DNA of 64,000 nucleotides from Cyrtodaria siliqua (Eukaryota > Mollusca > Bivalvia > Adapedonta > Hiatellidae): contig JAWPHD010008289.1 of the NCBI GenBank assembly GCA_037043455.1, positions 1-64,000 of the forward strand, in the 5' to 3' direction. The translations under genes were made by a program, and so were the position numbers. Position 1 is the first letter of the stretch, and the number at the start of each line of letters is the position of its first letter. The notes under the pieces are model-generated. The model saw only the letters and a program-made list of their open reading frames with translations, ran no database searches and was not told where the DNA came from. Shown one piece after another: positions 39,727 through 57,075 of the stretch.

Positions 39727-39796
39727 CGCAACCATTTTATTTTCCGATTTTGGATGTATCTACTTTTGGCGAAGTTCCAAAATCACACGACCCAAA
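39727..39796 (+). repeat. Polinton left terminal inverted repeat, inner part
   Basis: 'CGCAACCATTTTATTTTCCG', 'ATCTACTTTTGGCGAAGTTCC' and 'AAAATCACACGACCCAAA' match the reverse complement of 55773-55840. It is separated from the outer part by ~5.2 kb of unrelated DNA. Confidence 0.88.
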
Positions 39797-39814
39797 GCAG
39801 CATCAGGTCTAGTC

Positions 39815-40215
39815 TCAGCTGTTAAACAAAATCAGAAGGAATCATCTTCATCATCACTATACATATCACACTTGATCATGGAATATGTTATTTTTTCACA
39901 TTTGCGTTTTAGATAAGCCAGCATCCCTAATATTTCGATATCTTTGACTGGGTGATATTTCAACATGCAACCACACAAACATTACCAGAACCCCATTTTA
40001 AAATATCTTTACCGGAAAAACAATGCAGAGATGCATTTGAAGTTTGGCAAGTCCTCTTGCTAGCATGTCATGGGAAAGAACATTACTAGAAACCCGCTTG
40101 ATATCCTTCTACCGAAATGAAATGTAGAGATGCACCTGACGTTTAGCAAGTCCTCTTTTTTCCTCAATCGTCTGACTTGAAATATTTTGTTAAAATAACT
40201 TCAACATCAAGCTTC
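39815..40215. repeat. Local duplications near the Polinton left end
   Basis: 39818-39915 repeats 40212-40330 ('CAGCTGTTAAACAAAATCAGAAGGAA' ... 'ACTATACATATCACACTTGATCA'), so the end of the adjacent minus-strand ORF is duplicated. Inside, a ~90-bp unit ending 'GCAAGTCCTCTT' occurs twice (39984-40064, 40085-40165). Confidence 0.75.
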
Positions 40216-40554
40216 TCAGCTGTTAAACAAAATCAGAAGGAACAGGGCAATCATCTCGTGATCACTATACATATCACACTTGATCAAGGAATATTTTATT
40301 TTTCTACATTTGCGTATTTTGCGTTTCAAATTAAAAAGCTTTTTATTGATATGATCAAGTTTTTCTAGATAATAATCCATTCCCGATAGTAATCGCCCTC
40401 TTTTGTTAATTTGACTTTTCCTAGTATCTAGAAAATCAGTACGAATCACATCATATTCCACCCAATCCTGTTTGCATGCCAACAACGCTTTCCTATATTT
40501 GCCTTTCATCTCCTCAAGTTGTTCACATATCTCTTCCATAAATGTTTGTTCCAT
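40216..40554 (-). CDS. Unknown Polinton protein, helical and highly charged
   Basis: 112 codons from the ATG at 40554. Lys/Glu-rich helices with heptad character ('EEICEQLEEMKGKYRKAL', 'EKLDHINKKLFNLKRKIRK'), so a coiled coil is likely. It follows PolB on the same strand by ~55 bp. No family recognised. The C-terminus may be altered, because the same sequence is duplicated downstream. No TCTA motif upstream; its leader is TATA-rich. Confidence 0.6.
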   Translation of the reverse strand: MEQTFMEEICEQLEEMKGKYRKALLACKQDWVEYDVIRTDFLDTRKSQINKRGRLLSGMDYYLEKLDHINKKLFNLKRKIRKCRKIKYSLIKCDMYSDHEMIALFLLILFNS

Positions 40555-40609
40555 ATATAAAATATTATATTAAATAATTATTTATATGCTAGTGTATCCC
40601 GACCTATGC

Positions 40610-43600
40610 CTAATATGTACCTTTTGTCATCATATGCAGACAATTTTTTTTATTAATTTCATACCTGCCCAGCTTGCGTTTGTTAGATCTGGCAACTTTC
40701 ATTTTATGATGAGCTTCTGTCGCTGTGAATAAAATATTTTTGTAGTTATCATGCGTTATCTGTTTTTTGACTACACATTTTTTAACACCTGTGCATTTCT
40801 TTGCCTCAGTATTATCAGCCAAAATTTTGGAGTATGACTTACTCCTCAATCCAACAAACTCTACGATCACCGCACCACAGGCTTCGTCTTTCATCTTACC
40901 AATAACCTTTTTGTTATCGCTGAAGTAAAACTCGCTTTTTGGATCATAATCACTGTTACCAAAAAGTTGTTTGTCTTTGTAAAGATCAGCATACACATCT
41001 TCTGCCCTAATTTCATAACACAGAGAATCAGTGTCAGTAAACAATAATTTAACGTTTTCATTGTATTTGTTTTTAGCATAATTGTAGTGGAAATCATACA
41101 TCAAGTATTTTAATAAGTCTAGAATACACATACCAACATAACAAGGACGATTTAAGACCAGTCTTTCTTTCATTCCGTTTATAGCAAACAGATTTTCACT
41201 AAACATCTTACAAGAAATGAACGATGGTCTTGCCGCATACTTCAAAAGAACTTCCTCATCATACGTCAGCTTAACATTAACTCTCTTTCACAAGCTTTCC
41301 ATCATCTAACCAAAAACCGAATTATTCATAAGCTTGAGGAATTTGTTTTTGAAATCGTTTTTCCTGCTGTTCTTTTTGTAGCATTGAAGTCGATATACAC
41401 TTTCAACCATTGGGATTCATCACACTGGAGTATCCTGTGAATCTTTTGCACTTTCAACCCCAAACTGTCATACAACTTTAAATTTCTATAATGCGTGACA
41501 TATTTTTCCTTATCTTTCAATGTAGAACCAAGTTTGTTAACTTTACTAGTTCCCAAATCAAACTTACTTTTCAAATTCCTGCAGTAGTCCGACAACCACT
41601 CATCTTTTATATTTAGACTTTCCGGAGCGAGAGGATAATCGTTATGCAGGTCATGCAACTCTTCTGGATATTCAAGATCAGACTCAACAATATAGTTTGA
41701 TTTCCCTTCTTCAAATTTTTCGACCCATTTAAAATTACCAGTTGGTAAAAGCTGAAACATCGCCCACCCGTACAAGTTGTTAGCATCAAGAAACATTATA
41801 TACTTACTTTGTTTACTACTATCATAGTTTTCAAAATACTTATTAGCTTTCGAATATCTAGTCGCAATATAACTCACACCACCTCTTATTCCTTTCTCTA
41901 CAAACAGATATTATCAATATCAGTAATCAAGTCAAGTTTAATCCCAGTCATTTTCAAACAGGCATCCCAAGCTAAACCAGGACTACTGAAGTAATGACAA
42001 GGATCTAATTTGTAATACTCAAAGCACATTGTTCTAAAGTTCTCAAAAACATCCGCTAGCAGTAAAACATCGCTTTTCAAATACAGATCATGATATTCTC
42101 CCATGTTTTTGATCTTGAATGTCTTCCATATTTTTTTAGCATATTCATAATCCTCATCTGAGATATTTGCATCATTTAACTGGGAGTAGAAGCTTTTCTT
42201 TTCAGGCAATTGTTTTTCCTTGAAGCATTTAAAGCTATCCATATAATCATACGGCTAAACTCCTTTTCTTTTCAACAGTTCTAACTTTTCATCAGAGTAT
42301 TCCTGAGAGATATACTTAAACAACGGAATGTTTTTCGCTTTTATCGAGTGACTGGGACATAAACTGGAAACTATCTATAAACACCAAATTCGGCCCCAAC
42401 ATGAAAGCCATATACTTTTCCATGTTATTTGGTATAACATTTATCTTTTTTTTTTAACTTTCCGATATGCTGCATTATAAAGGGAGCGTCATGGCCTCTC
42501 AAGTTATGCAACACAACAGGTATGTTTTTAGTTAGTTTGAAACTGAGATTGCATGCATTATGAGCACTTCCTCTAAACTTCCCAGTTATATCGCAATGAT
42601 CTCTAACTGCTCTATCACACGTCATGTATCGTTCATCACCAATATGACATTTCTCGGCTGCTCTAAATTCTTTTTCTTCTGCTGCTGTCATTGTCAAATC
42701 TTTCTTAAAGCATGTATTTCCAGTTTTTTTACAATATGTTTCTTCCTCTATCATTTGTTCTAAAAACTTATAAACAGCATTTGGTCCTCTGTATGTTACA
42801 ACCGATTCGGAATATTTGTCATCATAGCAGCAGACAACCTGAACTGAACAGACTAAAAAAACCAGTCTGCTGCTTTATTCTCTTAATTGTGTTTGTTGCT
42901 CCCAAAGGATCACCTTTGTCAGTATTTTGTACCCATAACTACAATCAGTATGTTGTTGATATGCATTTGTATACGAGTTTTTTGGATTATTTGTAGCTGA
43001 AGATATTTTTTCTGTTATTGCTTCAAAGTCAGCATATATAACAAATGTAACCATTAATTGCCTGCTGTAGTTTTTAAAGAAAACCTTTTCACTCGCAAAA
43101 TGCATTTTAATGCTTACTTGCCATTTGGAGAAAGACAATCGGGTTTATGCTTTTCCAATACTTTTTCTAATGTGAATCATTGCATGCATGTTTTGCAGAA
43201 CCATTGTTTCCCTTGGTATACCGTTTGATTAAACATTAAACTGTTGAAATCCTTTATCCACACATAATGTTTGTTTTTTTCTTCAGCAATCAAAAGCATA
43301 TCGCATTCTTCTTCAGCTCTGTTTTTTGATATGTACAGAGGATACACCCCACTTTTTTCATATCCAAATATATTAAAACATATATTGTTTTGTTTTTCTA
43401 TTTTTGGGATTTGCTTCAATGCAACAGCAAATGTAATTCTGCTGTAATCAAGATCAACAATGTGCTTTTTGTACTTTGTTATTATTTGGGGATCTCTCGC
43501 AGCAGGAAATATATATGCCAGATGGCACCACCTGAAGCATTCATTGTCTTTTACATTTTTTATATTTATTAGGCCTTTCATAGAGTTAGAAAGTTATTTT

Positions 43601-43911
43601 GTTAACTCTAAATAAGAGCTACCCATCAAAGGTTTATACTTCACCCTATTTATATAATGCGCATCTACAGAATCATTTACATATCTACTTCTTCCCTCCA
43701 TCCACTCTCCAATGCTTTCCATAAGTTCAGCAGTTGCATTATCTAAAGCTCCTTTGATATCGTTTTCATCTAAGATTATTGCTGCCTTTGACACGAAGTA
43801 AACTGTTTTGTATATAGTATAGAAACCTTCATCTTTGTTTCCTCCCAATCTAGCGAAAGTCCTTCTCAAAGCAACACTCAATTTAAATCCACCCGTTCTT
43901 TTTAATTCCAT
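40610..43911 (-). pseudogene. Family B DNA polymerase of the Polinton (protein-primed type), broken
   Basis: Would replicate the element by protein priming. Minus-strand blocks in order: N-terminal part (43911-43177); a zinc-finger-like CxxC...H...C (~43195-43145); exonuclease motif 'YADFEAI' (~43040); 'DHCDITGKFRGSAHNACN' and ExoII 'NLRGHDAPF' (42600-42480); ExoIII 'YHDLYLKSDVLLLADVFENF' (~42100); polymerase motif A 'FLDANNLYGWAM' (~41790); motif B 'KLMNNSVFG' (~41330, followed by a stop in place of the catalytic-region Lys codon); motif C 'FTDTDSLCYE' (~41030); and the thumb region to 40610. At least six stops or frameshifts, including 43594, 43177 and ~41310. No upstream TCTA motif, consistent with an early gene. 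Confidence 0.92.
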
Positions 43912-44040
43912 CTTGAGGAATTCTGTGACAGTTTATCGCGTCTGATTAAGCTGAGAGAGGGACCAGCTTTCATGTACAATACCCACAGAAAAAAACCTTA
44001 CTATATTGTTTCGGGGATTTCTCAATTTCTTTTACACTCA

Positions 44041-44411
44041 TTATATAATAAGTGTATAGAAAATAATGTTTAAGTTATAATTAATTAATTTAACCAGCAA
44101 AAAAAATAGTATCAATTCCCTCCTTAATAACTCAGGAACGTAGTAATTTAAGAAATTAATATCTGCTGGGCCTCTAGTTGCTAGTGAGATCTTTTTGTTG
44201 CACAAGCTTCTTGCCCTTTTGATATCATGTTTTCTTATTTTCCACGGCAGTTTTATCTTTTGAGCCTCGGTTATAATCTTTTCAGTCAAATCCTTGAAGT
44301 TTATAAAAATGTATAGTTACCTATCCAGTTTTCGCATGCCTTCAAAATCAACTAACAAAGCTTGTTTTGCACATTCCTTTCTGAGACTTTTTATGTCATC
44401 TGTGTATATCA
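44041..44411 (-). pseudogene. Unknown small Polinton protein, frameshifted
   Basis: Two minus-strand pieces: 'MIYTDDIKSLRKECAKQALLVDFEGMRKL' (from 44411, written here in parts: start MIYTDD, end MRKL) and 44289-44041 ('KIKLPWKIRKHDIKRARSL'). A stop and frameshift separate them near 44320. Basic, with a hydrophobic C-terminus. No family recognised. Confidence 0.4.
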
Positions 44412-44480
44412 TATAATATTATGCTATTCTTAATCTTTTAAGTATTAATTAAATAAATAATATTAATAGTATATTATAAG

Positions 44481-45013
44481 ATGAACTGTATATATTGTAA
44501 GAGATTATTAGGTGCTTTAGATTCTTCTGAATTGTGCATGGATTGTTTTTGTTTTAAATAGTCGACAAAAAGACACATTGTAAAGATTGTGTTGGGTATA
44601 GACTTTGTTACAACTGCACGTACGCATATGCAAATTGTAATAGTACTTGCAGGGTTTTCAACGGAGAACGTAATTGTTTCAAATGTGGGACTCACAATTG
44701 ATATGATCTTGTTGCAGATTATCGGGGAGTTCGGAAGAAGAGCGTTTATCACAGAAAATATCATCTAGAAAAACTTTTGGGAGGGTACAATTTATCCCCA
44801 ATAGATAAGCAGAGATGTGAGGATTTGTTTTACAAGACTGTACAAATTTTAGATAAGATAGGAGGTCGGAAAAGAGTAATTAAATTTAATTACATTTTCC
44901 AGAAGATATTCAAGCTATTAGAAATAAAAAAAGAAAAAGAGCCAAAGAAGACAAAAGCTACTAGAGATAAGTACGAAGACATATGGAAACAAGTTGAAAA
45001 AGAACTGGTTTAG
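44481..45013 (+). pseudogene. Cys-rich protein, possible VLTF3-like late transcription factor, broken
   Basis: Starts at ATG 44481 with 'MNCIYC' and 'LCMDCFC'. The frame is lost near 44560 and resumes with 'HCKDC', 'LCYNC' and 'CFKCGTHN'. An in-frame TGA follows (44698-44700), then 'KKSVYHRKYHLEKLLGGYNL' and 'RKRVIKFNYIFQKIFKLLEI', and a Lys-rich end at 45013. Zinc-binding cysteines followed by a 'Y.R..H....L' helical domain resemble the poxvirus late transcription factor VLTF3 family, found in giant and some polinton-like viruses. The assignment is my inference; a generic zinc-finger protein is the alternative. It converges on the gene ending at 45010. Confidence 0.5.
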
Positions 45014-45435
45014 TAGCCGTTTAACTTATACCTCTCAATATACCTTTCTAGAGGTTCAGTAAAACTATCATTTTGCTGCAGATGGAGTATTTTAGAAAAG
45101 CTTGATGAGATTATTTCCCTATCTGGCATATTACATGTTTGGACATATGAAAGAAGTTGTTTGAAACTTCTATGATATGATTTTAATACAACCTTTTTCC
45201 CTGCCATTTTAGTTTTGTTCATCAAAACCGCAATTATTGGGGGAATTGATCCAACGATAGCTATGAAAACAGAAACTGCGGGGAACAATACCAATGCAGC
45301 GGTACAACCAATTATTCCACTTGTGATTTGTAACCCTGTATTAATTCTACCGAATAATTTGTAATTAAGTCTGTACGCTGTCGCTTGTCTAGTCAAGTAA
45401 CTAATTAATTCCTCCTTGCTTTTAATTTCTTTCAT
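45010..45435 (-). CDS. Two-helix membrane protein of the Polinton
   Basis: 141 residues from the ATG at 45435. I chose this start over the much longer in-phase frame because a TCTAAT motif lies 9 nt upstream in AT-rich DNA, exactly as for other Polinton genes. Two hydrophobic segments lie at ~38-60 and ~60-75 ('GIIGCTAALVLFPAVSVFIA', 'IVGSIPPIIAVLM'), flanked by basic helices. It may be a virion membrane or SLATT-like two-TM protein; the fold is a guess. Apparently intact. Confidence 0.6.
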   Translation of the reverse strand: MKEIKSKEELISYLTRQATAYRLNYKLFGRINTGLQITSGIIGCTAALVLFPAVSVFIAIVGSIPPIIAVLMNKTKMAGKKVVLKSYHRSFKQLLSYVQTCNMPDREIISSSFSKILHLQQNDSFTEPLERYIERYKLNGY

Positions 45436-46480
45436 TATAATAATTAGATTAATTAAAATATTTAGAAAACAATTGCACGTGTTCTCCGGTTGATATATTA
45501 CCATTTTTAATAACTCGTCGATTATGCTAATGCCTTTTTTCGTCAACTGTGGATTATTATTCCCTGATTCGATATTCCGACATACTAACTCCAGATCATT
45601 AACCAAATCATCGGGACTATTGTAATATTCTGCACAACCCCCTAAAATCTTCTTGTACTTTGAAGAACCTTTATGAATTTGCAAACCAGATAATTCTGTC
45701 AGTTCCTTGAATGCATTTTGAGATAGCTTCGAGTATGCTTTTCCGTTGCTGTAACGCTTTGTCACCAAATCAAGAAAATCATCATCCACTTTCAGATTTA
45801 GCACAACTGTTTCTCCGTGTCTAGCAATAAGTTGGTGATGACCAACAAGATTAGGTATATCAATTTGTAACATACCATAGTGGTCATCTTTGCTGACTTT
45901 ATAGGAATGCCATTCGTGTTGTATTCCTTCACCCAAAACAAAGTCTCCACTATACGCAATCATTGCAATAAATCTCTTCCTATAAATTGTTAAGGTGTCT
46001 GACTTTTTTATTATGTTTTCTCTGGCTTGTTTAATTCTTTCTTTCCCGGCTGCACTCTTTTCACTTTTGAGTTGACTTGTAAGAAAAGCCTTCTTGTGGC
46101 CGCATTCACGGATATGACTACTAACACGTTCAAGTATGTCCCCAAAATTTAGGTTATCTCTGAGCACCTTTGACGGCAAGGGTAAATCATTTTCTTCCAG
46201 CGTTGCTTTGTCGATTATAGCCTCTGGATCAATCACAATTGTCTGCTCTATTTCTTTACGAGGCTCTTCAGCAAATAACTGAGATTTTCCCTGGTACACT
46301 CTTTAACTGTTCAGACTGATTTTTTATTTCACTAGATACCGGTTTAAATATTTCTTTGTATAATTCACGACAAACTCCTTTTTCTAGTCTTTTCTGAATA
46401 ACTTTATTCTCATATTCTTTGACAAGATTACTCGTTGTTTGCATTTTATCTGCTAATTCTTTCCACTTTAACAAAGACAT
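45436..46480 (-). pseudogene. Unknown large Polinton protein, frameshifted and read through
   Basis: Starts at ATG 46480 ('MSLLKWKELADKMQ'), 14 nt after a TCTAAC motif. A frameshift near 46290 moves it to the frame that continues to 45436 and, with no stop, into the downstream gene. The N-terminal 150 residues are helical and charged. The middle has 'AMIAYSGDFVLGEG' and 'GHHQLIARHGETVVLNLKVDD', then 'KYKKILGG'. Hypothetical proteins of this kind are common in Polintons; no function assigned. Its own stop codon appears to have been lost between 45520 and 45440. Confidence 0.6.
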
Positions 46481-46546
46481 GTATACTATAAGGTTAGATA
46501 AAAATAAAATAAAATAAAATAAGCTAAGTTGTAAAACATGCATGAT

Positions 46547-46948
46547 TTATTTCTTAGTTGCTTTCTTGGCTGGTGCTTTGTTTAATTTGGCAATATTTGA
46601 TAGGGCTAGTGCTTGTTGTTTTTCCGCGCGTGCTATTTTAGCCCTAAGCTTTGTCTTTTCTTTTGCTGTTCTTGTTTTGTTGGCTAGTTGCTTTTTCAAT
46701 CCATTTATTTCCCACCCTGTTGCAAGGTGAAACAGATGTATGGCTTGCTTGTCGGTGCCTGATATGCTTCCCGGCTTTTTTGCTCTAGGTGTAAAAGGTT
46801 TTGGTGGTGCCTCATTTGGTTTTTGTATATCCTTGACTACTTTAACCAAACCATAATATCTTACCTGATTAGTTTTGAAACAATCTGCTTCTGTTCCGAG
46901 TTTTTTCCCAGATGGGATTGTTTTTATTCCGCAATAAACTTTAGACAT
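46547..46948 (-). CDS. Small basic Polinton protein (DUF5872-like N-terminus)
   Basis: 133 residues. The N-terminus 'SKVYCGIKTIPSGKKLGT' with 'CFKTNQVRYYG' resembles a short conserved module of giant-virus and polinton proteins (my recollection: DUF5872). The C-terminal half is Lys/Ala-rich ('KKQLANKTRTAKEKTKLRAK', 'APAKKATKK'), suggesting DNA or RNA binding, perhaps genome condensation. TCTAAT motifs lie 8 nt upstream of the ATG on its strand. Intact. Divergent from the ATPase gene, sharing a 43-bp intergenic region. Confidence 0.65.
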   Translation of the reverse strand: MSKVYCGIKTIPSGKKLGTEADCFKTNQVRYYGLVKVVKDIQKPNEAPPKPFTPRAKKPGSISGTDKQAIHLFHLATGWEINGLKKQLANKTRTAKEKTKLRAKIARAEKQQALALSNIAKLNKAPAKKATKK

Positions 46949-46991
46949 TATACTATTAGATTAGATAATATTATCCAAGTATATTATTATA
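46949..46991. promoter_or_regulatory. Divergent Polinton intergenic region with TCTA motifs
   Basis: 43 bp between the basic-protein gene (-) and the ATPase (+). On the minus strand it holds TCTAATCTAATAG (46957-46965), 8 nt before the ATG. No TCTA faces the ATPase. Confidence 0.55.
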
Positions 46992-47636
46992 ATGGAAATT
47001 CCAAACTGTGATATGAAGACAGAAAACGGTAATTTCAAACAGATATGGAACTTCATGCCGGACTGTTGTTTTAGAATGCTTATATGCGGTATTTCAGGAT
47101 CTGGCAAGTCAAACACATTAGTTCACATGTTGCTGAAACCTTTAGTTTACTATGATAAGGTTTATTTGTTTGCTTAAAAAATTGAAACAGTCAAAGTACC
47201 AGGTATTGTCACAAAAACTTAAAAAGACAGCAAAAAATAATAAAATTCCAGTCGAAGATATACTGGAGTGTTCGAATGATGAAGTTATCCCTGGGAATGA
47301 TTTGGACTCTGATACTCAAAAAATACCTATGCTTGATGATTATGTTCGCGAGCGTAACGAAAATGATATTGTCAATTATTTATCCAAGGCAGGCATAAGA
47401 ATTGTTGCGTAATTTACTTGTCGCAATCCTACTACAAAACTCCCAAAGACATCCGTTTAAACTGTTCTCACTACATCTTCTTCACAACTCCAGTTAATCG
47501 TGAGATGGGTATGCTTTCAAACGAACAGGGTGTTAGTAAAGAGCAGTACAGAAAACCAACTGACAAACACTATGATTTTCTATATCTTGATCGTCCTAGA
47601 AAGTTAATAAGGCATAACTTCAACGGTGAAATTTAA
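46992..47636 (+). pseudogene. Genome-packaging ATPase (FtsK/HerA superfamily), broken
   Basis: Powers DNA packaging into capsids. Start ATG at 46992. Walker A 'GISGSGKSNT' is at ~47090-47120. A stop follows at 47174-47176 with a frameshift, then 'DTQKIPMLDDYV', near where Walker B (hydrophobics then DD) is expected, at ~47310-47345. Another frameshift lies near 47405, then 'YLSQSYYKTPKDIRLNCS', the A32-like sensor motif. The frame ends with TAA at 47634, directly followed by the TCTA motif of the next gene. At least two frameshifts plus a stop make it non-functional. Confidence 0.85.
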
Positions 47637-47649
47637 TCTAATCATATTA

Positions 47650-48732
47650 ATGGGACTTTTTAATTATCTTGGAAGCGAGAAAACTAGTTCAGGTGGTGTT
47701 ACACATTTTGATATTGTGCTGTCTGAGTATGCAAAACAGAGACATGTGGTTAATTATGTTCACAAGGGCAAGAACCAGGAAAATATTTTGAGAAGTGATC
47801 TTGACATGAATAAAAATATAAATATCAATGTTGGCAATCCAGAAAAAGTAGATGATGTAGCAACCAGGCAATTTACTCAAAGAAGAATAACAAAAATCAT
47901 ACGTGATTATAATACTGATAAAATTCCAGAGATGATGAACAATTTGACAATAGGAGTTGGTGACAAAATAAGTCTAATACAAAAGCAATTACAAACAAAC
48001 CGCGAGAAAATGATTGAAATTCAAAATGGTTTGAAAGATAAAATAATCTTTCGGGTGATACTTTGGAAGAGTAAGAAAAGAAAGAAGATGGATTGGAAGA
48101 TGATAGCGAGCTCTATAAAAAGTTAGGTGAAAAAAATACAAGTTGGTGTTGACAGTATAATGAGCGAATTAAAGAAATCAATAAACAAATGGTTGATAAC
48201 AATGAACTTGAAGCTGGTTGACACTAATAAACTAGAAACTGCTATTGCTGATGCTTCAAAGCAGTTAAAAGCTGCTCAGGGTGAACGAAGCACCGATTTT
48301 GATATTGAAATAGCTTCTCTTAAAGAGCATAATCAAAAGTCTGATAGCCGGCACACAGCACTTCTTGGGATAATTAATGAGTTGAAAGCAAAAGTAGAAT
48401 ATGTAAGCCGGATTGTAATCCTTGAAGCTGCAATTGGTGGTGGAATAAGTATTATTCAATATAACAATGGTTATGCATCAAACCCAACGGGGAAACTGGG
48501 GTCAATAGCCTCCCATGGCTTCACTTGTCTCAAAGCATTTACTCTCACATATAGCTCATTCGTAAAAAGTGAAGAATATGCTACAAAGAATCCTGATGGT
48601 TGTGCCGTAACAATTGTAAAACCCGGGCGTTATGTAGTTGAGGCAGACCTTGCATACACTGTTGAAAGTACAGACATTGGGATAGAATATTTTAGCTTGT
48701 TTAATGCAGGCTACCGGGAACCATCTTATTAA
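47650..48732 (+). pseudogene. Fibre-like virion protein, frameshifted
   Basis: ATG at 47650, 9 nt after TCTAATC. The N-terminal half has 'DLDMNKNININVGNPEKVDD', the pattern typical of viral fibre shafts ('MNxNxIxNVxxPxxxxD'). A Lys/Glu/Gln-rich coiled coil follows (~47950-48390). The C-terminal ~110 residues (48415-48732) contain 'YNNGYASNPTG' and 'VKPGRYVVEADLAYTV', which read like a C1q/TNF-type jelly-roll head. Frames change near 48040 and 48220, so the chain is interrupted. A receptor-binding spike is inference from architecture only. Confidence 0.55.
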
Positions 48733-49210
48733 CCAATAATATTTCAATATTTCAATATTTTATTAGTGATACAGGCCACCGGCCAAAACACATAACATGT
48801 ATACAATATATTTATCATAAATTTACACGTGGTTTGGTTGTTATGCATAAATGTACAATTAACTAACAATACTATCAATACAATACTATTGCTGTTATAT
48901 AACAGTACATACTAATCATGAATAAATTCACTTCGTTTAACGAAAGCATAGTAAAGAAACATAGCTATATGTTTTATAACACTTTCATTTTTACATGACA
49001 TGACAATATTAAACTTGTGTTTGTTAGGAAACTCATAATAGAAAATGGTAAACGAATACTAAAAGAAACATTTGAAGCATATCTTCCAAAATCTCAACAT
49101 TGGGCCATCTTTACTATCATAACATATGACACTACTCAAGTTTTTAAATTTGAAAATCTGGTTTAAAACTGTTTTATATAGGTGATTAATTGTATCTACT
49201 TATATATATA
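48733..49210 (+). other. Polinton intergenic region
   Basis: AT-rich, no coding sequence. Ends with the TCTA motif of the penton gene (49195-49198). Confidence 0.5.
49191..49210 (+). promoter_or_regulatory. TCTA motif before the penton gene
   Basis: TGTATCTACTTATATATATA immediately precedes the ATG. TCTA followed by a TATA-rich spacer, as at 45445 (-), 46495 (-), 46957 (-), 47637, 51154, 51571, 52724 and 53884. Confidence 0.55.
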
Positions 49211-49967
49211 ATGGAACAAAAAATTGTATTATCATCAGAAAGAGCTTCAATAATTAATAGCTCAAATACACCGGGTAATTTGATAGACCATTGATATAAG
49301 ACAAGAATAAACAGTATGATATTGGACTCGATCAGATTAATTCTATGACTTACTCATGGTATAACATTAGCGAGGATTTTAATAACAAAGTGATAAGGTA
49401 TCCCTTTGGAAAATATAAAGCTCCAAAAACAATTAGTTTTACAAATGGAAATTACAATTATGCTGATATTGATAATTATATGAAATAAACATTGACTGTC
49501 AACGGTAATTTGACTGATGAATCACCTGTCCCGATAAGAACTGAATTTGATTGATCAAGTTTCAAATGTTTAGTTACCATTCATGATAACTTTATGCTTG
49601 ATTTGTGGGAATCAAACTTTCACACTTTGATTGGATTTGACAAAGATGCGGTTATTAGAGAAGCTAAATTTGGGACAGTAGTACCAAACATAACAAATTC
49701 TATTGATACTTTATAATCCACTGTGATTTGATAAGTAATTCTATCATTGATGGATCATATGGAGATGTTATTTATGATATAAGTACAGCCGACCTTAGGA
49801 GGTCATATCCTTTCAGAGATGAACCGATAAGAGTCGGGTTCTGTGGAGTAAACAAAACGATCATTAACAGTATTACTATTTACATAACAGATTTCTCCGG
49901 TAAAATTATTAATCTCAACGGAGTTCCTACGTCATTTCGATTTGTTTTGAAAGAATTAATGTAATAA
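49211..49967 (+). pseudogene. Penton / minor capsid protein (single jelly roll), broken
   Basis: Forms capsid vertices in Polinton-type virions. Start ATG at 49211 ('MEQKIVLSSERASI'), 12 nt after TCTA. Pieces: 'YSWYNISEDFNN' (~49350), 'GNYNYADIDNYMK' (~49450-49486), 'SNFHTLIGFDKDAV' (~49615), 'GSYGDVIYDISTADLRR' (~49750) and the terminal 'SITIYITDFSGKIINLNG'. At least four stops or shifts (49292, 49486, 49551, ~49710). Ends at 49964. Confidence 0.78.
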
Positions 49968-49969
49968 AA

Positions 49970-51133
49970 AGAAATATAAAAAGATCGGACAGGGAAAGTA
50001 GCATTCAAGGAAAACAGTCAACCACAAAACACAGAAACAAACATGAAAACAGACAAACAAGAAACAAGAAGGCAACAGTAATAATAAAAGTAAACTACAT
50101 CACAAACACAAAAGGGTTGATAATAGGGCTACCGCCTTGGAACGGTCCGTGGCAAAGTAGGACACTGGGGGTTTAAGCCGGTTCTAGGGTGCACCAAACC
50201 TCACACTTACCCTACTGTCATCCCATTAAACAGGATGGTGTAAAGAAAGAAATCTCCGCCATGATCTAATCTCTAACCAACAAGGCAGCATCAATAGGCA
50301 ATATAAGTAGAACACGCATATGCTCGTGTAAATATAATACAAAAATAACAATAGCAGAGAAAGCCACAATGAAGGTACTCAATGACTTGGCAGAAGCCAG
50401 AGCAATAAGAGAATAAACCATTAAGGGCACGACAAGAAAGATCAGAGACAAACATCAAATGCCAACAGAATAAACCATTAAGGGCACGACAAGAAAGATC
50501 AGAGACAAACATCAAACGCCACCGTCCCAATGGACTTTTGGTAGGCGTCATCATAGGGTCCACAGCCTGTCCGGTCATTTTACAATTAAAGAGGAAAGCA
50601 TAGTGGCGAACTGTAAAAGGGTCCACCACCAAGCATGAAGTACGTTGCAAAATGATATGGTCATAACCTCTTTTGATAAACTTTTTAACAAGTTTAACAA
50701 AGATCATGAAGATAGTATGAAAGTGAACATGACCAAGAATCTTACGAAGTTTATAAATCACATCACCATAGAAGTCAGGTTGGAATAGTCCTTGTCGCAG
50801 AAGAGTCCTTAAATTACTTTTATATTTGGAAAGAAAATCAGGGTTACGATAATAAAATGTTGCAAAAGTTTTACGAAGTTTATTGTAACGGTAACCCTGA
50901 TTGAGTAGCTTTTTAGTTCTACAACGATTACGAATATTAAAGACCTCAACTCGAGTACAAGCTCTTGAAAAACGAATAAGTTGAGGCACATACACCCCAT
51001 ATGAAGTTGCTCGGGGAACATCCCCATCCGAGTGGGGGTACTTAACAATGTCAAAATTATAATCATCTCTCTTGTCATAGATTTTGCTAATTATTTCACC
51101 ATTTTCAATCGAGAGATCTAAATCAAGAAAAGG
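49970..51133 (-). mobile_element. RT family A copy D inserted in the Polinton
   Basis: A 5'-truncated minus-strand copy between the penton and pVI-like genes. Its 3' end is at 49976 ('TATAAAAAGATCGGACAGGG') and it breaks off 5' at 51133 ('AAATCAAGAAAAG'). It keeps the C-terminal RT sequence 'FSRACTRVEVFNIRN' to 'LQRTSCLVVDPFTV' and the 3' region. A 54-bp block 'AATAAACCATTAAGGGCACG' ... 'AAACATCAAA' is duplicated in tandem (50414-50517). 'AAAAG' at both edges may be the target duplication. Confidence 0.85.
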
Positions 51134-51161
51134 TTGAGTAACTTACGTTTTATCTAACGTA

Positions 51162-51565
51162 TGTTATATGACGCGATTAAAAACGTTTATGATACTAGTA
51201 TGGGAAACTATACTGAAGTTGACAAATTAACTGGAGCCGGTATATTTGACTTTTATTTTTAAAAGTTGGCTCGAAAATATTTAGTGCGTCTGTAAAAACA
51301 GCAGTCAAGAAAGCATTAGAAACTGCTGGAAAACAAATCATAGAGAGTGGTTCTAAAAAGACTTGGAGATGATGTAGGTAAAATGGCTGCTGATAAATTA
51401 GTTTCGGTTATTAAACCTAAACCAAAAGGTGAGATAATTTTAAAAGAACTTACAAAAGCTGCCACAAAAAATATTGTGGCTGATAATATAATTGAAGAAG
51501 ATGTAAATGCAAAATTAACAGATTACTATCCGGAAGAGGAATTCATGCAAGAATTAAACAATTAA
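51162..51565 (+). pseudogene. pVI-like amphipathic capsid-associated protein, frameshifted
   Basis: ATG at 51162, only 4 nt after a TATCTAAC motif. The first part reads 'TEVDKLTGAGIFDFYF' and is stopped at 51261. The reading resumes as 'VGSKIFSASVKTAVKKAL' and, after another shift near 51355, 'LGDDVGKMAADKLVSVIKPK' to the TAA at 51563. Amphipathic Ala/Lys/Gly helices preceding the capsid gene resemble membrane-lytic minor capsid proteins such as adenovirus pVI; the homology is inferred. Confidence 0.5.
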
Positions 51566-51591
51566 TTTAATCTAATTACTAGTATACATAG
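51564..51591 (+). promoter_or_regulatory. TCTA motif before the major capsid gene
   Basis: TCTA at 51571-51574 in AT-rich sequence between the TAA of the pVI-like gene and the capsid ATG at 51592 (spacer 17 nt). Confidence 0.55.
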
Positions 51592-52723
51592 ATGTTTCGA
51601 AGTGATAAATATAATACTAAATATGAACACGTACCTATTCAGTTAGATACTCCTATAACACAACCAGCACAAGCTACCAGACAATTGAAAAGTGGTTATC
51701 AATTTACGTTAAATGACCGAAGTTCTTACTTTGATTGGTATAACGCATATTTCGAAATCAGTTTTCGAGTAAACGAAGTTGATGATGGAACCGCTTTTGC
51801 AACCGCTGATGAAATTGCTCTAATTAATGATACAGCTTCATTGATTGATCAAATGAAAGTAAAACAAAATGGAAAAACAGTTTATGATGGAAATAATCTT
51901 TACAGATTTGCTAATCTCAAAAGCCTGCTTGAAATGTCTGACGATTATGCGTTGTAGCAGAATCTCGAGGTGCTCAAGCTGGTTATAAATTAGAATTTGC
52001 AGCTTGCCATGCTTAAATCATAACTAATCGAAAAATTGATTCTATAATTCCATTAAACAAATATTTTCAAGTCAGGTGTGGTAATAATGGTCGAGTGGTT
52101 ATTAATAAATTAGTTTTGTGGATACCTAAAATGATATTTAACTCAGATGGTTTGGCTTATGTTATTTCAAATCACATGACATCAACAAAGTGGACTTACC
52201 TCCGTGAGATGATACAAGAAAACGGAAGTTCTCTAGCAACCGAACCTGTGTTTAGATTAACGGCTGGTGTAAAAAATCTCAAACATGTTCATGTGTATTT
52301 GGAAAGATCAGACAATAGTTCACACCAAGAGCGATATCCTCACCTTTTGGATAATTTTCGTCTAAATGTTGGTGATGCTGCTTCTTATTTGCAAACAGCC
52401 AGAATGGGGTATATTATCCAGAAACTGAATACAGCCATGATAATATTATAAGAATAATCAGAGATGTTATTAATTATTCTTACAAACAAAATGATAAAAA
52501 CACTGGAACTTTACTCAGTGTGGGTAATTTTAAAATTCTCTTTGGAATGATATATGTCGTTTTAAGTTACAAAGGAAATGAGGTCAGTGTTGATCCAAAA
52601 CAACTGAATTTGAGATATAAATCAAATATAACTCCAGGAGCTCCTTATAAAGCTTATGCTCTGGTTCTCTCTGAAGAAGATGTAGTTATTGATACTGTCG
52701 AAAATGAATTGGTAATAGTTTAA
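51592..52723 (+). pseudogene. Major capsid protein (double jelly roll), broken
   Basis: Hexon-type capsid subunit. ATG at 51592, 17 nt after TTTAATCTAAT. The N-terminal 121 codons are intact ('FRSDKYNTKYEHVPIQL', 'FTLNDRSSYFDWYNAYFEI'). A stop follows at 51955, then 'ESRGAQAGYKLEFAACHA' with another stop, 'NRKIDSIIPLNKYFQ', 'LERSDNSSHQERYPHL', 'YYPETEY' after a shift near 52415, 'GTLLSVGNFKILFGMIYV' and the C-terminal 'NELVIV' with TAA at 52721. The order and motifs match Polinton/adintovirus capsid proteins. Confidence 0.85.
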
Positions 52724-52740
52724 TCTAACTTATAATATAT

Positions 52741-53226
52741 AAGACTTACATAAAGTATTCGATAGATTTAACAGATGGCCAGAAACGAAGTCTGGCAAAA
52801 GCATATGAAACAAAAAGTGAATTAACGCTCAGGTTGAAGAATAATCAATTAACTGGGGATTTTCCTTTGCTGTTCACAGCTACTCAGATTAACAATATTA
52901 ACAAAGCTAAATCCAACGGATATGGATTGGATGTTAATATATCAAAATCGCAGATGAGATCTCAGTCCAAGAATGGAGGCTTTTTGAGAGCATTAGTTGG
53001 CTTGTTGACTAAAACAATATTACCGACAATTGCTAGACTAGCTCCGAAAATATTAGCACCACTAGCAACAGGAGCACTGAGTGGTCTGGCGAGTACTGGA
53101 ATTGGTAAACTATTCGGAAATGGAAGGGTAACTATCCCTAGCGGCAAAAAACAAGCACTTCTTAAATCAGGTGTGTTAACACCATCGCAAAGACAAAAGA
53201 AAATAAAGTCAAAAGGTTGTTATTAA
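52741..53226 (+). CDS. Hydrophobic Polinton virion protein
   Basis: A ~160-residue open frame with no ATG near its start; the first codon after the upstream stop is at 52729. A TCTAAC motif lies at 52724, so the start codon was probably lost by mutation. 'IDLTDGQKRSLAKAYETK' and 'LLFTATQINNINKAKSNG' precede a hydrophobic, Gly/Ala-rich stretch ('GGFLRALVGLLTKTILPTIA', 'APLATGALSGLASTG') and a basic end. Such proteins occur next to capsid genes in Polintons and may interact with membrane or DNA. Confidence 0.6.
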   Translation, partial: KTYIKYSIDLTDGQKRSLAKAYETKSELTLRLKNNQLTGDFPLLFTATQINNINKAKSNGYGLDVNISKSQMRSQSKNGGFLRALVGLLTKTILPTIARLAPKILAPLATGALSGLASTGIGKLFGNGRVTIPSGKKQALLKSGVLTPSQRQKKIKSKGCY

Positions 53227-53259
53227 ACCCTATTAAACTGACAAGAGATTAACAACAAG

Positions 53260-53477
53260 ATGGGGGGGGATTTCTTGGACTTCTTGCATAATTAGGGATT
53301 CCTTTAATTGGATCTCTTATTAGCGGTTTGACGGGAAAATGTTTACAAGTAGGTAGAAAAGGAAAAGGCTTGAGAGTAGGCAAAGGTTTACAAGTAGATT
53401 CACAATTTAGACCATATAGAAGTATCCCATTCATAAAAAAAAAGTTAATTTTTAAAATGACCCTATTTCTAACTTAG
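53260..53477 (+). pseudogene. Small Gly-rich hydrophobic Polinton protein
   Basis: ATG at 53260 leads into a G-run (53262-53269) where the frame slips. The in-frame continuation reads 'GFLGLLA', a stop (53289-53291), 'LGIPLIGSLISGLTG', then basic 'VGRKGKGLRVGKGLQVDSQ'. Looks like a second pX-like or membrane-active capsid component. Function unknown. Confidence 0.45.
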
Positions 53478-53888
53478 ACATAATAAAGTGGAGTTAGGCA
53501 GTTAGGTATACAGAAATTCAGGGGAGTGTTTAGCAAAAACAAATTACCAGCAAAACAAAATAAACACGAATGCGGTATTATTAATATTGATAATTATACT
53601 GGACCTGGTACACACTGGACTTGTTACTGTAATGAGTATTATTTTGATTCGTTTGGCTAGAGTATACCAAAAGAAGTTTTAAATTACATACCCAACATAA
53701 AATGCAACACCATTCAGTATCAAGATAAAACGAGTGTCTTGTGCGGATATTTCTGTCTGCACTTTGTCAAAAAGTTGCAAGAAGGAAATAGTGTGTACTT
53801 TATTCTTTATAAAATATTAAAACCTTACAAACCTGTGGAAAATGAAAACATAATACGATCATATTTTGAAAAACAAAGTTTAGTCTAA
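53465..53888 (+). pseudogene. Adenovirus-type cysteine protease, broken
   Basis: Would process capsid precursors. 'LDIIKWS' (then a stop and a shift near 53495), 'FRGVFSKNKLP', 'ECGIINIDNYTGPGTHWTCY' with the catalytic His, 'YYFDSFG' with the catalytic Asp (then an in-frame TAG at 53659), and 'SVLCGYFCLHFV' with the catalytic Cys. TAA at 53886. The triad residues are all still present, although the frame is interrupted. Confidence 0.85.
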
Positions 53889-53901
53889 TCATATATTATA
53901 T
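53884..53901 (+). promoter_or_regulatory. TCTA motif before the PLA2 gene
   Basis: TCTAATCATATATTATAT ends at the ATG and overlaps the protease stop codon. Nearly the same string (TCTAATCATATTA) precedes the fibre-like gene at 47637. Confidence 0.6.
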
Positions 53902-54374
53902 ATGAGTTAATGCGTGAAAGAAAAGATAATTACTGAAAATGTTAATCCTCAGTATATTTTAACAAAAAATGGTAGAAGAATGTTAAAAGCAACATGCACT
54001 TCTTGCGGTATTACTAAAACGCAATTTGTCAAAAGTACACAAGGTGGAAACATTGATATCCATAAAGCTTTGCTTCCTTTGCTACCCAAAAAGGGGTTAA
54101 CGCTTCCTGGTTATAAATATTGTGGTCCTGGTAATCCGCATGACAGTGGAGAACCATCAAATGAATTAGATGCTATTTGTAAAGATCATGATTACTGTTA
54201 TGACGAAAGTCCTAGTAATAAATCAATATGTGATAAAAACATGCTGGCTGGTTTGAAAATGAGCAAATACAAATCACTTGGAGAAAAGATCGCTTAGAAT
54301 TTGATAGTCAAGCCTGTAATTAGTGCAAAATGTAAACTAGGACTTGGAGAGCCCAAAAACAAGAACAGGCAATG
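53902..54374 (+). pseudogene. Zinc-finger plus phospholipase-A2-like protein
   Basis: ATG at 53902, 14 nt after TCTAATC; its third codon is TAA, after which the frame is open to 54297. Residues ~10-50 hold a zinc-ribbon-like '[17 protein letters not shown]'. '[11 protein letters not shown]' is the calcium-loop pattern and '[15 protein letters not shown]' the His-Asp active site of secreted and parvovirus-type phospholipase A2. An in-frame TAG (54295-54297) is followed by further similarity to 'LGLGEPKNKN'. PLA2 domains have been reported in adintovirus-type elements; the role is probably membrane breach during entry. Confidence 0.8.
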
Positions 54375-55767
54375 AGATGGTCTGATATTCTACCCGATGA
54401 ACTTCATCTTGTCGTGCCCTTAATGGTTTATTCTCTTACTGCTCTGGCTTCTGCCAAGTCATTGAGTACCCTCATTGTGGCTTTCTAGGCTATTGTTTTT
54501 TTGTATTATATTTGAACGAGCATATTTGTGTTTTACTTATATTGCCTATTGATGCTGCCTTGTTGGTTAGAGATTAGATCATGGCGGGGATTTCTTTATT
54601 TACACTGTCCTGTTTTAATGGGATGACAGTAGGGTAAGTGTGAGGTTTGGTGCACCCTAGAACCGGTTTAAACCCCCAGAGACCTACTTTTCTACTGACC
54701 GTTCCAAAGCGGTAGCACTATTGTCAACCCTTTTGTGTTTGTGATGCCGTTTGCATTTATTATTGCTTTTGCCTTCTTGTTTGTCTGTTTGCGTGTTTAT
54801 TTCTGTGTTTTGTGGTTGACTGTCCTCCTTGAATGCTACTTTCCCTGTCCGATCTTTTTATATTTCTTTCATAAACCTATACGAAGAAACTTCACTCAAC
54901 GCCGCGTGATTGTTAATGAAATAAATAAAATATGGTCGGCTGATTTGGTTGATATGCAATCGTTTTCAAAATATAATAAAGCTGTTAAATACCTGCTTAC
55001 TGTTATTGATGTATTTCGTAAATTTGCTTGGGTTGTACCAGTTCCAAATATAAAACTGGTTTAGAAATTACCAAAGCGTTCCAACAGATAATAAGCACGG
55101 GAAGACAGTGTAATTGGTTGTGGGTTGATCAGGGTGTGAAGTTTTATAACAAGACGTTTAAACAATTCCTTGATGGCAATAAGATTAAAATCTATCACAC
55201 GTTGTAGTAATCGAACGATTTAATAGAACATTGATGTGGAAATATTTTACAGCGAACAATACAAATATATATTTAAACGTGCTACAGGTGATGGTTGATA
55301 AATACAATTATACAAAACACCGGAGTATTAAAATGACACCGATTGAGGCCAGCGATGAGAAAAATAAAGGAATAGTGTATTTCAACTTGTATGGAAAGAT
55401 GACAATTAATAAAGCTTTGCCAAAGTTCAAAATAGGATACAATGTTAGAATTAGCAAATATAAAAGAACGTTTGAAAAAGGTTATACTCCAAATTGGACC
55501 GAAGAAATATTTGTTATTGATGAAATTCAATATACAAATCCTGTTATATACAAAATAAAATATTTGAACAATCAAAACATTGATGGTAGCTTCTACATGT
55601 TCTATGAATTGGAAATGTTAAAAGCTGATCAAGAAATATTCAGAATTGAAAAGGTTATACGACGTGATTACAAAAAGAAACAAGCATTGATTAAATGGAA
55701 GGGTTACAACGAGGATTTTAATAGTTGGGTACCGTTTAAGGATATACAAGACATAAAAGTGTGTTAA
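54372..55767 (+). pseudogene. Polinton integrase (DDE) with C-terminal chromodomain, broken
   Basis: Inserts the element into DNA. Starts 'MRWSDILPDELH' (54372-54407), is interrupted by RT copy E (54408-54867), then resumes in frame 'KPIRRNFTQRRVIV'. Catalytic core: 'IWSADLVDMQ' (first Asp, ~54945), 'LWVDQGVKFYNKTF' (second Asp, ~55125) and 'VVIERFNRTLM' (Glu, ~55215). One frameshift at ~55062 and a small deletion plus shift near 55203. The C-terminus has 'FRIEKVIRRDYKKKQALIKW' and 'KGYNEDFNSWVPF', a chromodomain thought to steer integration to chromatin. TAA ends the frame at 55767. Confidence 0.9.
54408..54867 (+). mobile_element. RT family A copy E inside the integrase gene
   Basis: A tail-only, 5'-truncated copy ('CTTGTCGTGCCCTTAATGG' to 'TGTCCGATCTTTTTATATTT'). 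TTCAT occurs just before it (54403-54407) and just after it (54868-54872), and the integrase codons CAT|AAA join in phase without it, so it is a clean insertion with a ~5-bp duplication. Confidence 0.88.
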
Positions 55768-55772
55768 AGAGG

Positions 55773-55934
55773 TTTGGGTCGTGTGATTTTGGAACTTCAC
55801 CAAAAGTAGATTCACCCAAAATCGGAAAATAAAATAATTGCGTTTTTCATACCGCGACATGCATATTTGCCAACTTGTCGTGTAAGAGACCCCGAGGGGA
55901 AAACTGCGCTGGCACCCTTAGTTTCTATACTACT
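55773..55934 (-). repeat. Polinton right terminal inverted repeat
   Basis: An uninterrupted 162-bp repeat, partner of 34405-34500 plus 39727-39796. The integrase stop codon (55767) lies just outside it. Confidence 0.9.
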
Positions 55935-55940: not shown

Positions 55941-56341
55941 GTTTATAGACAAATTGTTGGTATCCCTATGGATACGAACTGTGCACCACTTGTCGCAGAT
56001 TTGTTTGTATTTTGCTATGAAAGAGATTTCATGTTGAATCTTTCACCAGATACCCAGGCAGATGTTATTGAAGCATTTAATGACGCCTCTCGGTATCTGG
56101 ATGACATATTGAACATTGACAACCATTTCCTTCCAACTGGGGTTAATAATATTTATCCTAAAGAACTTCAGCTTAACGAAACTAATATATCTGGTAATAA
56201 TGTTTCTTTTCTTGATTTAGATTTCTCGATTGAAAATGGTGAAATAATTAGCAAAATCTATGACAAGAGAGATGATTTTAATTTTGACAGTGTTAATTAT
56301 CTCCACTTGGATGGGGATGTCCTCCGAGCAACTTCTTATGC

Positions 56342-56363
56342 GGGGGGGGGGGGGGGGGGGGGG
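56342..56363 (+). repeat. Run of 22 G
   Basis: A homopolymer inside the family-A RT copy C, at the place where related copies encode 'YGVYLAQL'. Prone to sequencing and assembly length errors; could form G-quadruplex. Confidence 0.9.
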
Positions 56364-57075
56364 TCTCAACTTTTTCGTTTTTCAGGAGCTTGTACTCGAG
56401 TTGAGGACTTTAATATTCGTAATCTTTGTATAACTAAAATCTACTCAATCAGGGTTACCGTTACCATAAACTTCGTAAAACCTTTGCAATATTGTATTAT
56501 CGTAACCCCGATCTTCTTTCCAAATATAAAAATATTTTAAGGACTTTTCTGTGACAAGAACTATCACAATCTGACTTCTATGGTGATGTGATTTATAATG
56601 TTCGTAAGATTTTTGGTCATGATCACTTTCATACTATCTTTGTTAAACTTGTTAAAAAAGTTCTCAAACGAGGATATGACCCTAACATTTTGCAACGTAC
56701 TGCATGCTTGATGGTGGACCCTTTACAGTTTGCACTATGCTTTCCTCTTTAATTGTACAATGACCGGACATGCTGTGGACCTATGATTACGCCTACCTAA
56801 AGTCCACTGGGACGGTGGCTTTGATGTTTGTCTATGATCTTTCTTGTCGTGCCCTTAATGGTTTATTCTCTTGTTGCTCTGGCTTCTGCCAAGTCATTGA
56901 GTGCTTTCATTGTAGCCCTATTGACAACGCTTGTGTGTTTGTGATGTCTTATCTTGTATTGTATTCATCTTTACATATAGTTGTTCTTTGTTTCTTTGTG
57001 TGTTCGTGGTTGACTGTCGTCCTTGAATTCTACGTTTTCTGTTCGATTTGTATATCTACTTTTTATGTTAACATA

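Follow-up and report, generated by a model that had tools for sequence, protein, structure and literature searches.

An extended TCTA motif, a candidate late-type promoter, precedes one class of genes in a Polinton from the genome of the bivalve Cyrtodaria siliqua

The 64,000-nucleotide stretch of the Cyrtodaria siliqua genome analyzed here (GenBank assembly GCA_037043455.1, contig JAWPHD010008289.1, positions 1 to 64,000; hereafter, the window) contains a decayed Polinton (Maverick) in which an extended TCTA motif, TTTWATCTAAY, is located shortly upstream of the start codons of nine genes. In diverged copies of the element in the same genome, the motif recurs before these nine genes (denoted late-type) and, in its strict form, is missing before the genes encoding the putative PolB, a VLTF3-like protein and two proteins without an assigned function, c44412 and c40554 (denoted early-type); we infer the labels early and late from the sequence. 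TTTWATCTAAY is almost certainly a cis element under selection and very probably acts as a promoter, as predicted from its placement. Quite probably, it is the core of a late-type promoter in a two-class system, possibly served by the VLTF3-like factor; that the predicted promoter is indeed late appears likely.

TCTA is present 4–17 nt before all nine start positions in the window, as reported in the preliminary description of this DNA. On the minus strand, TCTA is located at 45445–45448 (within TTAATTAATCTAAT), 9 nt before gene c45435, and at 46495–46498 (TTTTTATCTAACC), 14 nt before c46480, and two overlapping TCTAA units at 46957–46965 end 8 nt before c46948. On the plus strand, the corresponding positions are 47637–47640 (TTTAATCTAAT), 9 nt before gene 47650; 49195–49198 (TTGTATCTACT), 12 nt before 49211; 51153–51156 (TTTTATCTAAC), 4 nt before the ATG at 51161; 51571–51574 (again TTTAATCTAAT), 17 nt before 51592; 52724–52727 (TTTAATCTAAC), 13 nt before the start of the protein-VI-like gene at 52741; and 53884–53887 (TTTAGTCTAAT), 14 nt before the PLA2-domain gene, 53902. 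Most of the start coordinates given previously stand, with the correction of 51162 to 51161, and the gene described as lacking an ATG downstream of the TCTA at 52724 does read AAG at the homologous start position, 52741. In the best-ranked sites, TCTA is part of the longer TTTWATCTAAY.

Seven starts, excluding 51161 and 52741, were compared with control ATGs and with shuffled sequence. TCTA was found within 25 nt upstream of all seven, compared to 73 of 851 AT-rich control ATGs, and its reverse complement, TAGA, preceded none of the seven; the AT content of these 25 nt is 80–96%. When the upstream 40 nt were dinucleotide-shuffled 2000 times, the count averaged 3.2 and never reached seven. Because the start codons were chosen in the preliminary description, so that the test could be circular, a leave-one-out position weight matrix was used. 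Among the 127,974 positions on both strands of the window, the nine sites rank 3, 3, 4, 11, 12, 13, 14, 83 and 171. Exact TTTWATCTAAY occurs five times on the two strands of the window, in each case at a Polinton gene start. Across the genome (2.88 Gb, 26,948 contigs), the 11-mer occurs 23,710 times (once per about 121 kb, both strands counted) versus 18,873 for the pattern read backward.

The host genome contains many copies of the Polinton (150 matches scored of 4247 first-look candidates). Homologous starts were mapped by tblastn in pieces of other copies, and the unique upstream sequences were tabulated, with the window copy contributing one row per gene; the strict motif was defined as WRTCTAMY within 30 nt before the start. 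Matches beginning after query residue 6, matches located 65 nt or less from the end of the locus, and copies identical in the 45+12 nt surrounding the start were left out; misplaced-looking starts were kept (for example, PolB of locus L038 and c46480 of L074 and L082 and, in the second locus set described below, PolB of L098 and L105). WRTCTAMY was detected before 92 of the 130 late-type starts, namely, in 15/15 rows for the PLA2-domain gene, 22/26 for the protein-VI-like gene, 8/9 for c45435, 11/14 for c46480, 10/14 for 51592, 9/14 for 47650, 7/14 for 51161, 7/16 for 49211 and 3/8 for c46948. By comparison, it precedes none of the 40 early-type starts (PolB, 0/12; c44412, 0/10; VLTF3-like, 0/11; c40554, 0/7) and none of the 12 ATPase starts. 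Three controls on the 182 rows (the reverse complement of the same stretches, the interval 65–35 nt upstream, and the interval 3–33 nt downstream) each gave zero. The motif follows gene orientation, as noted in the preliminary description. It also agrees with the checks proposed there, being enriched before homologous genes in other copies of the same genome and scarce or missing in AT-matched and reversed sequence.

The split between late-type and early-type starts yields a Fisher value of 1.9e-17 with related copies treated as independent, and because the copies are related, this value overstates the certainty. An unprompted k-mer comparison returned ATCTAA as the top late-enriched 6-mer (0.54 vs 0.00). 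The copy pieces, 195,060 bp in total, contain 38 exact 11-mers versus 1.61 expected at the genome rate; for 37 of the 38, the 30-nt stretch upstream of a mapped start falls within −45 to +70 nt. Plain TCTA was rejected as the motif unit: it is too short and also occurs, in another context, before PolB (4/12) and the VLTF3-like gene (2/11). Bare TAGTATA was rejected as a late mark, given that it precedes genes of both classes.

In three genes, the motif is also conserved much more strongly than its upstream flank. The column analysis excluded copies with under 60% similarity to the window copy over the last 30 nt, together with rows without an ATG-like start, and used 24/26 rows for the protein-VI-like gene, 11/14 for c46480, 11/14 for 51592, 4/12 for PolB and 4/11 for the VLTF3-like gene; the PLA2-domain gene, with 3/15 rows only, is not taken as evidence. 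The mean pairwise mismatch in the motif, the upstream flank and the spacer to the ATG is, respectively, 0.063, 0.454 and 0.402 for c46480; 0.116, 0.528 and 0.147 for 51592; and 0.030, 0.186 and 0.030 for the protein-VI-like gene. Many of the copies are related and hence not independent, and the protein-VI-like spacer is conserved to the same extent as the motif, as would be the case if the motif reflected chance or the shared ancestry of AT-rich spacers and persisted because the copies are young. This explanation appears highly improbable. In c46480, 51592 and the protein-VI-like gene, divergence of the flank exceeds that of the motif by a factor of 4.6 to 7.2, which contradicts such an explanation; different genes of one element share the motif, and the three controls are all empty.

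A second element characterizes part of the early-type genes. GGGYTTAAA is located upstream in 6/12 PolB, 3/10 c44412 and 3/7 c40554 rows, a total of 12 of the 40 early-type rows, at approximately 25–36 nt before the start in the rows inspected for distance, and was found before none of the 11 VLTF3-like, 130 late-type and 12 ATPase starts; accordingly, CTTAAA is among the ten most early-enriched 6-mers (0.00 late vs 0.39 early). We infer a TATA-like role for this element. With TATA-like sequences at PolB, c44412 and c40554, both gene classes could be served by host promoters of two types, TTTWATCTAAY being a plain, initiator-like core element of RNA polymerase II that depends on host factors alone, with the VLTF3-like gene unrelated and no early/late switch. 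The similarity of CTAAY to the pyrimidine-A initiator consensus and the placement beside the start codon, which fits an initiator with a short leader, are compatible with this possibility. So clean a split between the genes, however, is not what a host initiator should produce, and the VLTF3-like gene is retained in many copies; we therefore consider a host initiator unlikely, albeit with an appreciable residual chance.

The position of the motif relative to start and stop codons bears on whether it acts in transcription at all. Upstream stop codons abut or overlap TCTAA before 47650, 52741 and 53902, as might be expected of a translational or mRNA-processing signal (a leader element, stop-restart, poly(A) signal, or terminator of the preceding gene) rather than a promoter. 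Stop-codon coupling and a terminator are, however, contradicted by c46480, where the motif lies approximately 48 nt beyond the upstream stop; by 49211, which is more than 400 nt away from the previous open reading frame (ORF); and by c46948, which is divergent, so that no gene ends there. Furthermore, the distance between the motif and the start codon is tight (4–17 nt; median, 13; n=80), and there is no consistent AG acceptor before the ATG. A non-promoter signal of this kind is thus decidedly improbable. CTAAY resembles a branch point, and a splice acceptor was considered separately and rejected because, of the nine starts in the window, 51592 alone has AG immediately before the ATG. N-terminal extensions of homologous proteins (for example, P0053) are compatible with an upstream TATCTAA and, being protein data only, prove nothing in this respect. 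Considering position, orientation and conservation together, TTTWATCTAAY would be a late-type core promoter that coincides with the transcription start or lies immediately beside it.

The late-promoter reading becomes more likely given that the element encodes a VLTF3-like protein. The gene (44481–45013, plus strand; frames broken) consists of Cys-rich N-terminal pieces followed by the C-terminal half of the Pox_VLTF3 domain, VLTF3 being a late transcription factor of giant viruses. With 22.3 bits (E 1.2e-4), the window piece 44702–45010 (plus strand) falls short of the cut-off of 25 bits, which L040, an uninterrupted relative of 188 aa, exceeds with 25.5 bits; a FYVE match to the piece 44558–44698 (E 2.5) was dismissed as chance. 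With 150 of 587 candidates scored, a search of the genome with the VLTF3 family produced 65 matches, each exceeding the cut-off, and the same search in 14 control genomes produced none. These 65 comprise 57 half-length matches (about 29–34 bits, up to 33.6), seven near-full-length ones (123–142) and a damaged one (44.8). Of the half-length loci, 12 were inspected (L098–L109), and 11 gave a unique mapped VLTF3-like start. In this second locus set, which was picked by the VLTF3 family independently of the motif, the strict motif is present before c45435 (6/8) and c46480 (1/1) and absent before the VLTF3-like gene (0/11), PolB (0/6) and c44412 (0/3).

According to the scenario we favor, the host RNA polymerase II would first transcribe the early-type genes from TATA-like promoters. 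The VLTF3-like protein would then direct transcription from TTTWATCTAAY, initiation at or just after TCTA would yield mRNAs with very short leaders, and the capsid and other virion proteins would thereby be made late. Given that no polymerase gene of its own was seen in the element, the VLTF3-like factor would work with the host RNA polymerase II. The suggestion that this candidate factor drives transcription from the motif is tentative. Equally provisional is the generalization that animal Polintons run their own two-stage transcription, with TATA-like promoters for the replication and regulator genes followed by TTTWATCTAAY for the virion genes, opened by the self-encoded VLTF3-like factor. 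The late-promoter logic proposed in the preliminary description is borne out in part: the motif separates one gene class from PolB and its neighbors, and a VLTF3-like protein is encoded.

The motif could also have been acquired from a helper virus, if the Polinton is, or descends from, a virophage-like parasite whose motif copies the late promoter of an animal-infecting large DNA virus, as in mavirus with Cafeteria roenbergensis virus (CroV). TCTA in AT-rich flanks is common to CroV and the mavirus-type endogenous mavirus-like elements (EMALEs) (PMC8547959), a TCTA late motif exists in ChlorV (PMC13196603), and seven uninterrupted near-full-length VLTF3 genes, at 123–142 bits, reside elsewhere in the C. 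siliqua genome. No matching large virus turned up, none having been searched for directly, and WRTCTAMY is absent from the 32 nt before the ORFs of the near-full-length VLTF3 loci, a few of which have bare TCTA. Because, in addition, only the 4-nt core is shared with mavirus and CroV and the element has a VLTF3-like gene of its own, a helper-virus origin seems improbable.

The near-full-length VLTF3 loci (L090–L096, on contigs G000 C6506, C18383, C75, C553, C2241, C8252 and C435) have recurring neighbor ORFs and perhaps belong to another family of capsid-encoding elements. Two neighbor ORFs in L110 showed no Pfam family match.

Several observations weigh against TTTWATCTAAY being a late promoter served by the VLTF3-like factor. 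The strict motif is missing in 38 of the 130 late-type rows, most conspicuously for c46948 (5/8 rows), 49211 (9/16) and 51161 (7/14). Six of the seven motif-less 51161 rows also lack an ATG at the mapped position, so this gene may start elsewhere. Copies lacking the strict motif often have near-variants, as at 47650 (TTTAATGTAA, two copies), 49211 (TCCAT, four copies) and 51592 (TCCAAT, one copy). WRTCTAMY was not seen at the presumed start of the putative protease in the window and six copies, where TCTAAC lies inside the apparent first codons. Furthermore, six of the nine late-type genes have no assigned function (c45435, c46480, c46948, 47650, 49211 and 51161, with Pfam matches below the cut-off or none), so the earlier label of virion genes has partial support only. 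None of the 12 rows of the ATPase, presumed to be a packaging protein, has the strict motif. The late motif is not distinguished by its conservation alone: the protein-VI-like spacer is as conserved as the motif (0.030), and TTCTATA upstream of PolB is conserved, too (mismatch of 0.0 vs 0.245 in the flank among four related copies). As for the VLTF3-like protein, the half-length kind, with its Cys-rich N-terminus, matches only profile positions ~86–165 of 168, and because the whole domain is not covered, we call it VLTF3-like rather than VLTF3. One relative (L048) has no VLTF3 match, and another, incomplete one (L038) scores 13.1 bits. A single-sequence fold of the VLTF3-like piece was of poor quality (predicted local distance difference test, pLDDT, 63) and gave no convincing VLTF3 match in BFVD (best E 0.59). 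The lack of WRTCTAMY at the near-full-length VLTF3 loci belongs here as well.

The motif had been described as absent before PolB, the ATPase and c40554. This holds for the strict motif in all rows of the three genes, and does not hold for TCTA before PolB or for near-variants. PolB starts at 44041 on the minus strand (MSVKEIE..., kept in several other copies), and TCTA is located 15 nt before this start in the window, as TTCTATA (TTTTCTATACACTTATTATATA) and not as the extended motif; in other copies, the upstream sequence is often GGGCTTAAA. The near-variant TATCCAAG occupies 46972–46979 on the plus strand, before the ATPase start at 46992, and occurs in 5/12 ATPase rows (the window and four further copies), with ATCTGAC in three more; upstream of c40554, there is a one-mismatch form, TTTAATATAAT. 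The 43-bp divergent region between c46948 and the ATPase gene (46949–46991) pairs TATCTAA with TATCCAAG, one on each side. In 2/8 rows, c46948 has TATCCAAG instead, and the divergent region of L034 and L041 combines TATCCAAG with TATCTGAC. Thus, the short divergent region common to c46948 and the ATPase gene holds elements that are related without being equal.

The Polinton approximately spans positions 39727–55842 (assigned to neither strand), as bracketed by an inverted repeat and the gene content. The 70-nt repeat pair (39727–39796 and 55773–55842; 93%) flanks the Polinton genes and probably belongs to the terminal inverted repeats of the element. The PLA2-domain gene (start at 53902, plus strand) matches PF08398 (E 1.1e-13). 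It is followed by a broken integrase gene (approximately 54870–55767, plus strand) encoding an rve core (E 0.0021, below the cut-off) and a chromodomain (Chromo, E 9.9e-8, above the cut-off). In copies L055 and L008, the PLA2-domain gene and the integrase share one open frame, so the integrase may have no promoter of its own; the same arrangement, with PF00665 present, is seen in P0138, a protein from elsewhere. Another relative of the PLA2-domain protein, P0175, is filed under the genome of a bacterial symbiont of Bathyaustriella thionipta, which we take to be a bivalve, and is most likely host DNA contamination. The predicted A32-type packaging ATPase (start at 46992, plus strand) is represented by two pieces that match Pox_A32 below the cut-off (E 0.0018 and 0.023). 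On the minus strand are the broken PolB gene (40610–44041), the first part of c44412 (44317–44412; late-type motif, 0/10) and c40554 (40216–40554; 0/7, with a TATA-like sequence upstream).

Several protein names are our assignments. The PolB label, which in Polintons denotes a protein-primed polymerase, is based on sequence motifs; the pieces match no Pfam polymerase family, and one has no PDB match. Gene 51592 presumably encodes the major capsid protein, which is of the double jelly-roll type in Polintons, judging from its position and without tool support: the 51592 piece has only sub-cut-off Pfam matches and none in PHROGs, and the 52017 piece has one sub-cut-off Pfam match and none in PDB. 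The gene with the homologous start at 52741, which we take to be protein-VI-like, and the presumed protease were likewise named from general features, without confirmation in the libraries; the former has 105 homologs in the protein collection, one of them from the clam Mercenaria mercenaria.

Other searches contributed little. Relatives of the element's proteins were not found in viral contigs scanned with five window pieces and three alignment queries. Genome contigs were scanned for relatives twice, with no matches the first time and L001 only the second; L001, bacterial by its title and ORFs, was dropped as a chance match. None of the 23 candidates from a protein search with c46948 scored, sequence searches of PDB with four pieces gave no match, and PHROGs, NCBIfam and PADLOC scans produced nothing useful. 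In and beside the Polinton, pieces 49968–51132, 54407–54869 and 56206–56916 belong to one repeat family (88–96% alike, in opposite orientation).

In the literature excerpts available, no explanation of how animal Polintons express their capsid genes was found, and according to a 2021 vertebrate survey, Maverick particles had not been observed. Two promoter classes combined with a VLTF3-like gene represent a concrete, testable model of Polinton expression. If valid, this model would tie Polintons to giant viruses by regulation, beyond the capsid and ATPase genes, and would bear on the debate between the nuclear-escape and virophage-first scenarios (PMC10328495). It would also place a giant-virus-type late-gene system outside Nucleocytoviricota, making its origin before or after the giant viruses directly testable.

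Vertebrate Mavericks, protist and animal Polintons, and adintoviruses share with the present element the integrase, the predicted A32-type ATPase, the PLA2-domain gene, the putative PolB and the inverted repeats. The excerpted vertebrate Maverick survey (PMC8097293) describes no promoter motif, and none was found for any animal Polinton in the open literature, so far as excerpts extend. Compared with VLTF3 of Nucleocytoviricota (PF04947), the C-terminal half of the protein matches above the cut-off in relatives and the first half of the profile is unmatched; here, the gene resides on a Polinton. An analysis of mriyaviruses reported that homologs of VLTF2 and VLTF3 could not be detected outside Nucleocytoviricota (PMC11253617). 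Adintovirus-like insertions of an ichthyosporean are listed as containing VLTF3 (PMC11244446), and the metazoan E. pallida is reported to have it as a single, isolated gene of giant viruses (PMC5294986), so finding VLTF3 within or close to elements of this kind has some precedent. No earlier description of a VLTF3-like gene paired with a late-type motif in an animal Polinton was found in the open literature, again as excerpted.

Among characterized late promoters, that of the HzNV-1 nudivirus is TTATAGTAT (PMC6626001), which occurs exactly at 46483–46491 on the minus strand, between TCTAA and the start of c46480. Among the window gene starts, it is found at c46480 only, whereas the shorter TAGTATA precedes genes of both classes. 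In ChlorV, a giant virus of chlorarachniophytes, the TCTA late motif has the same sequence and position as in CroV (PMC13196603); this is a giant virus of a protist that is not known to be linked to Polintons. In mavirus and type 4 EMALEs as well as in CroV, TCTA in AT-rich flanks is located upstream of ORFs (PMC8547959). The Polinton resembles these in the TCTA core, the AT-rich setting and the position close before start codons. It differs in that the motif is longer (TTTWATCTAAY), precedes one gene class only, and resides in an animal genome, in an element that has its own VLTF3-like gene and is not known to have a giant-virus partner. The resemblance to the mavirus promoter lies in the four-letter core and its AT-rich placement.

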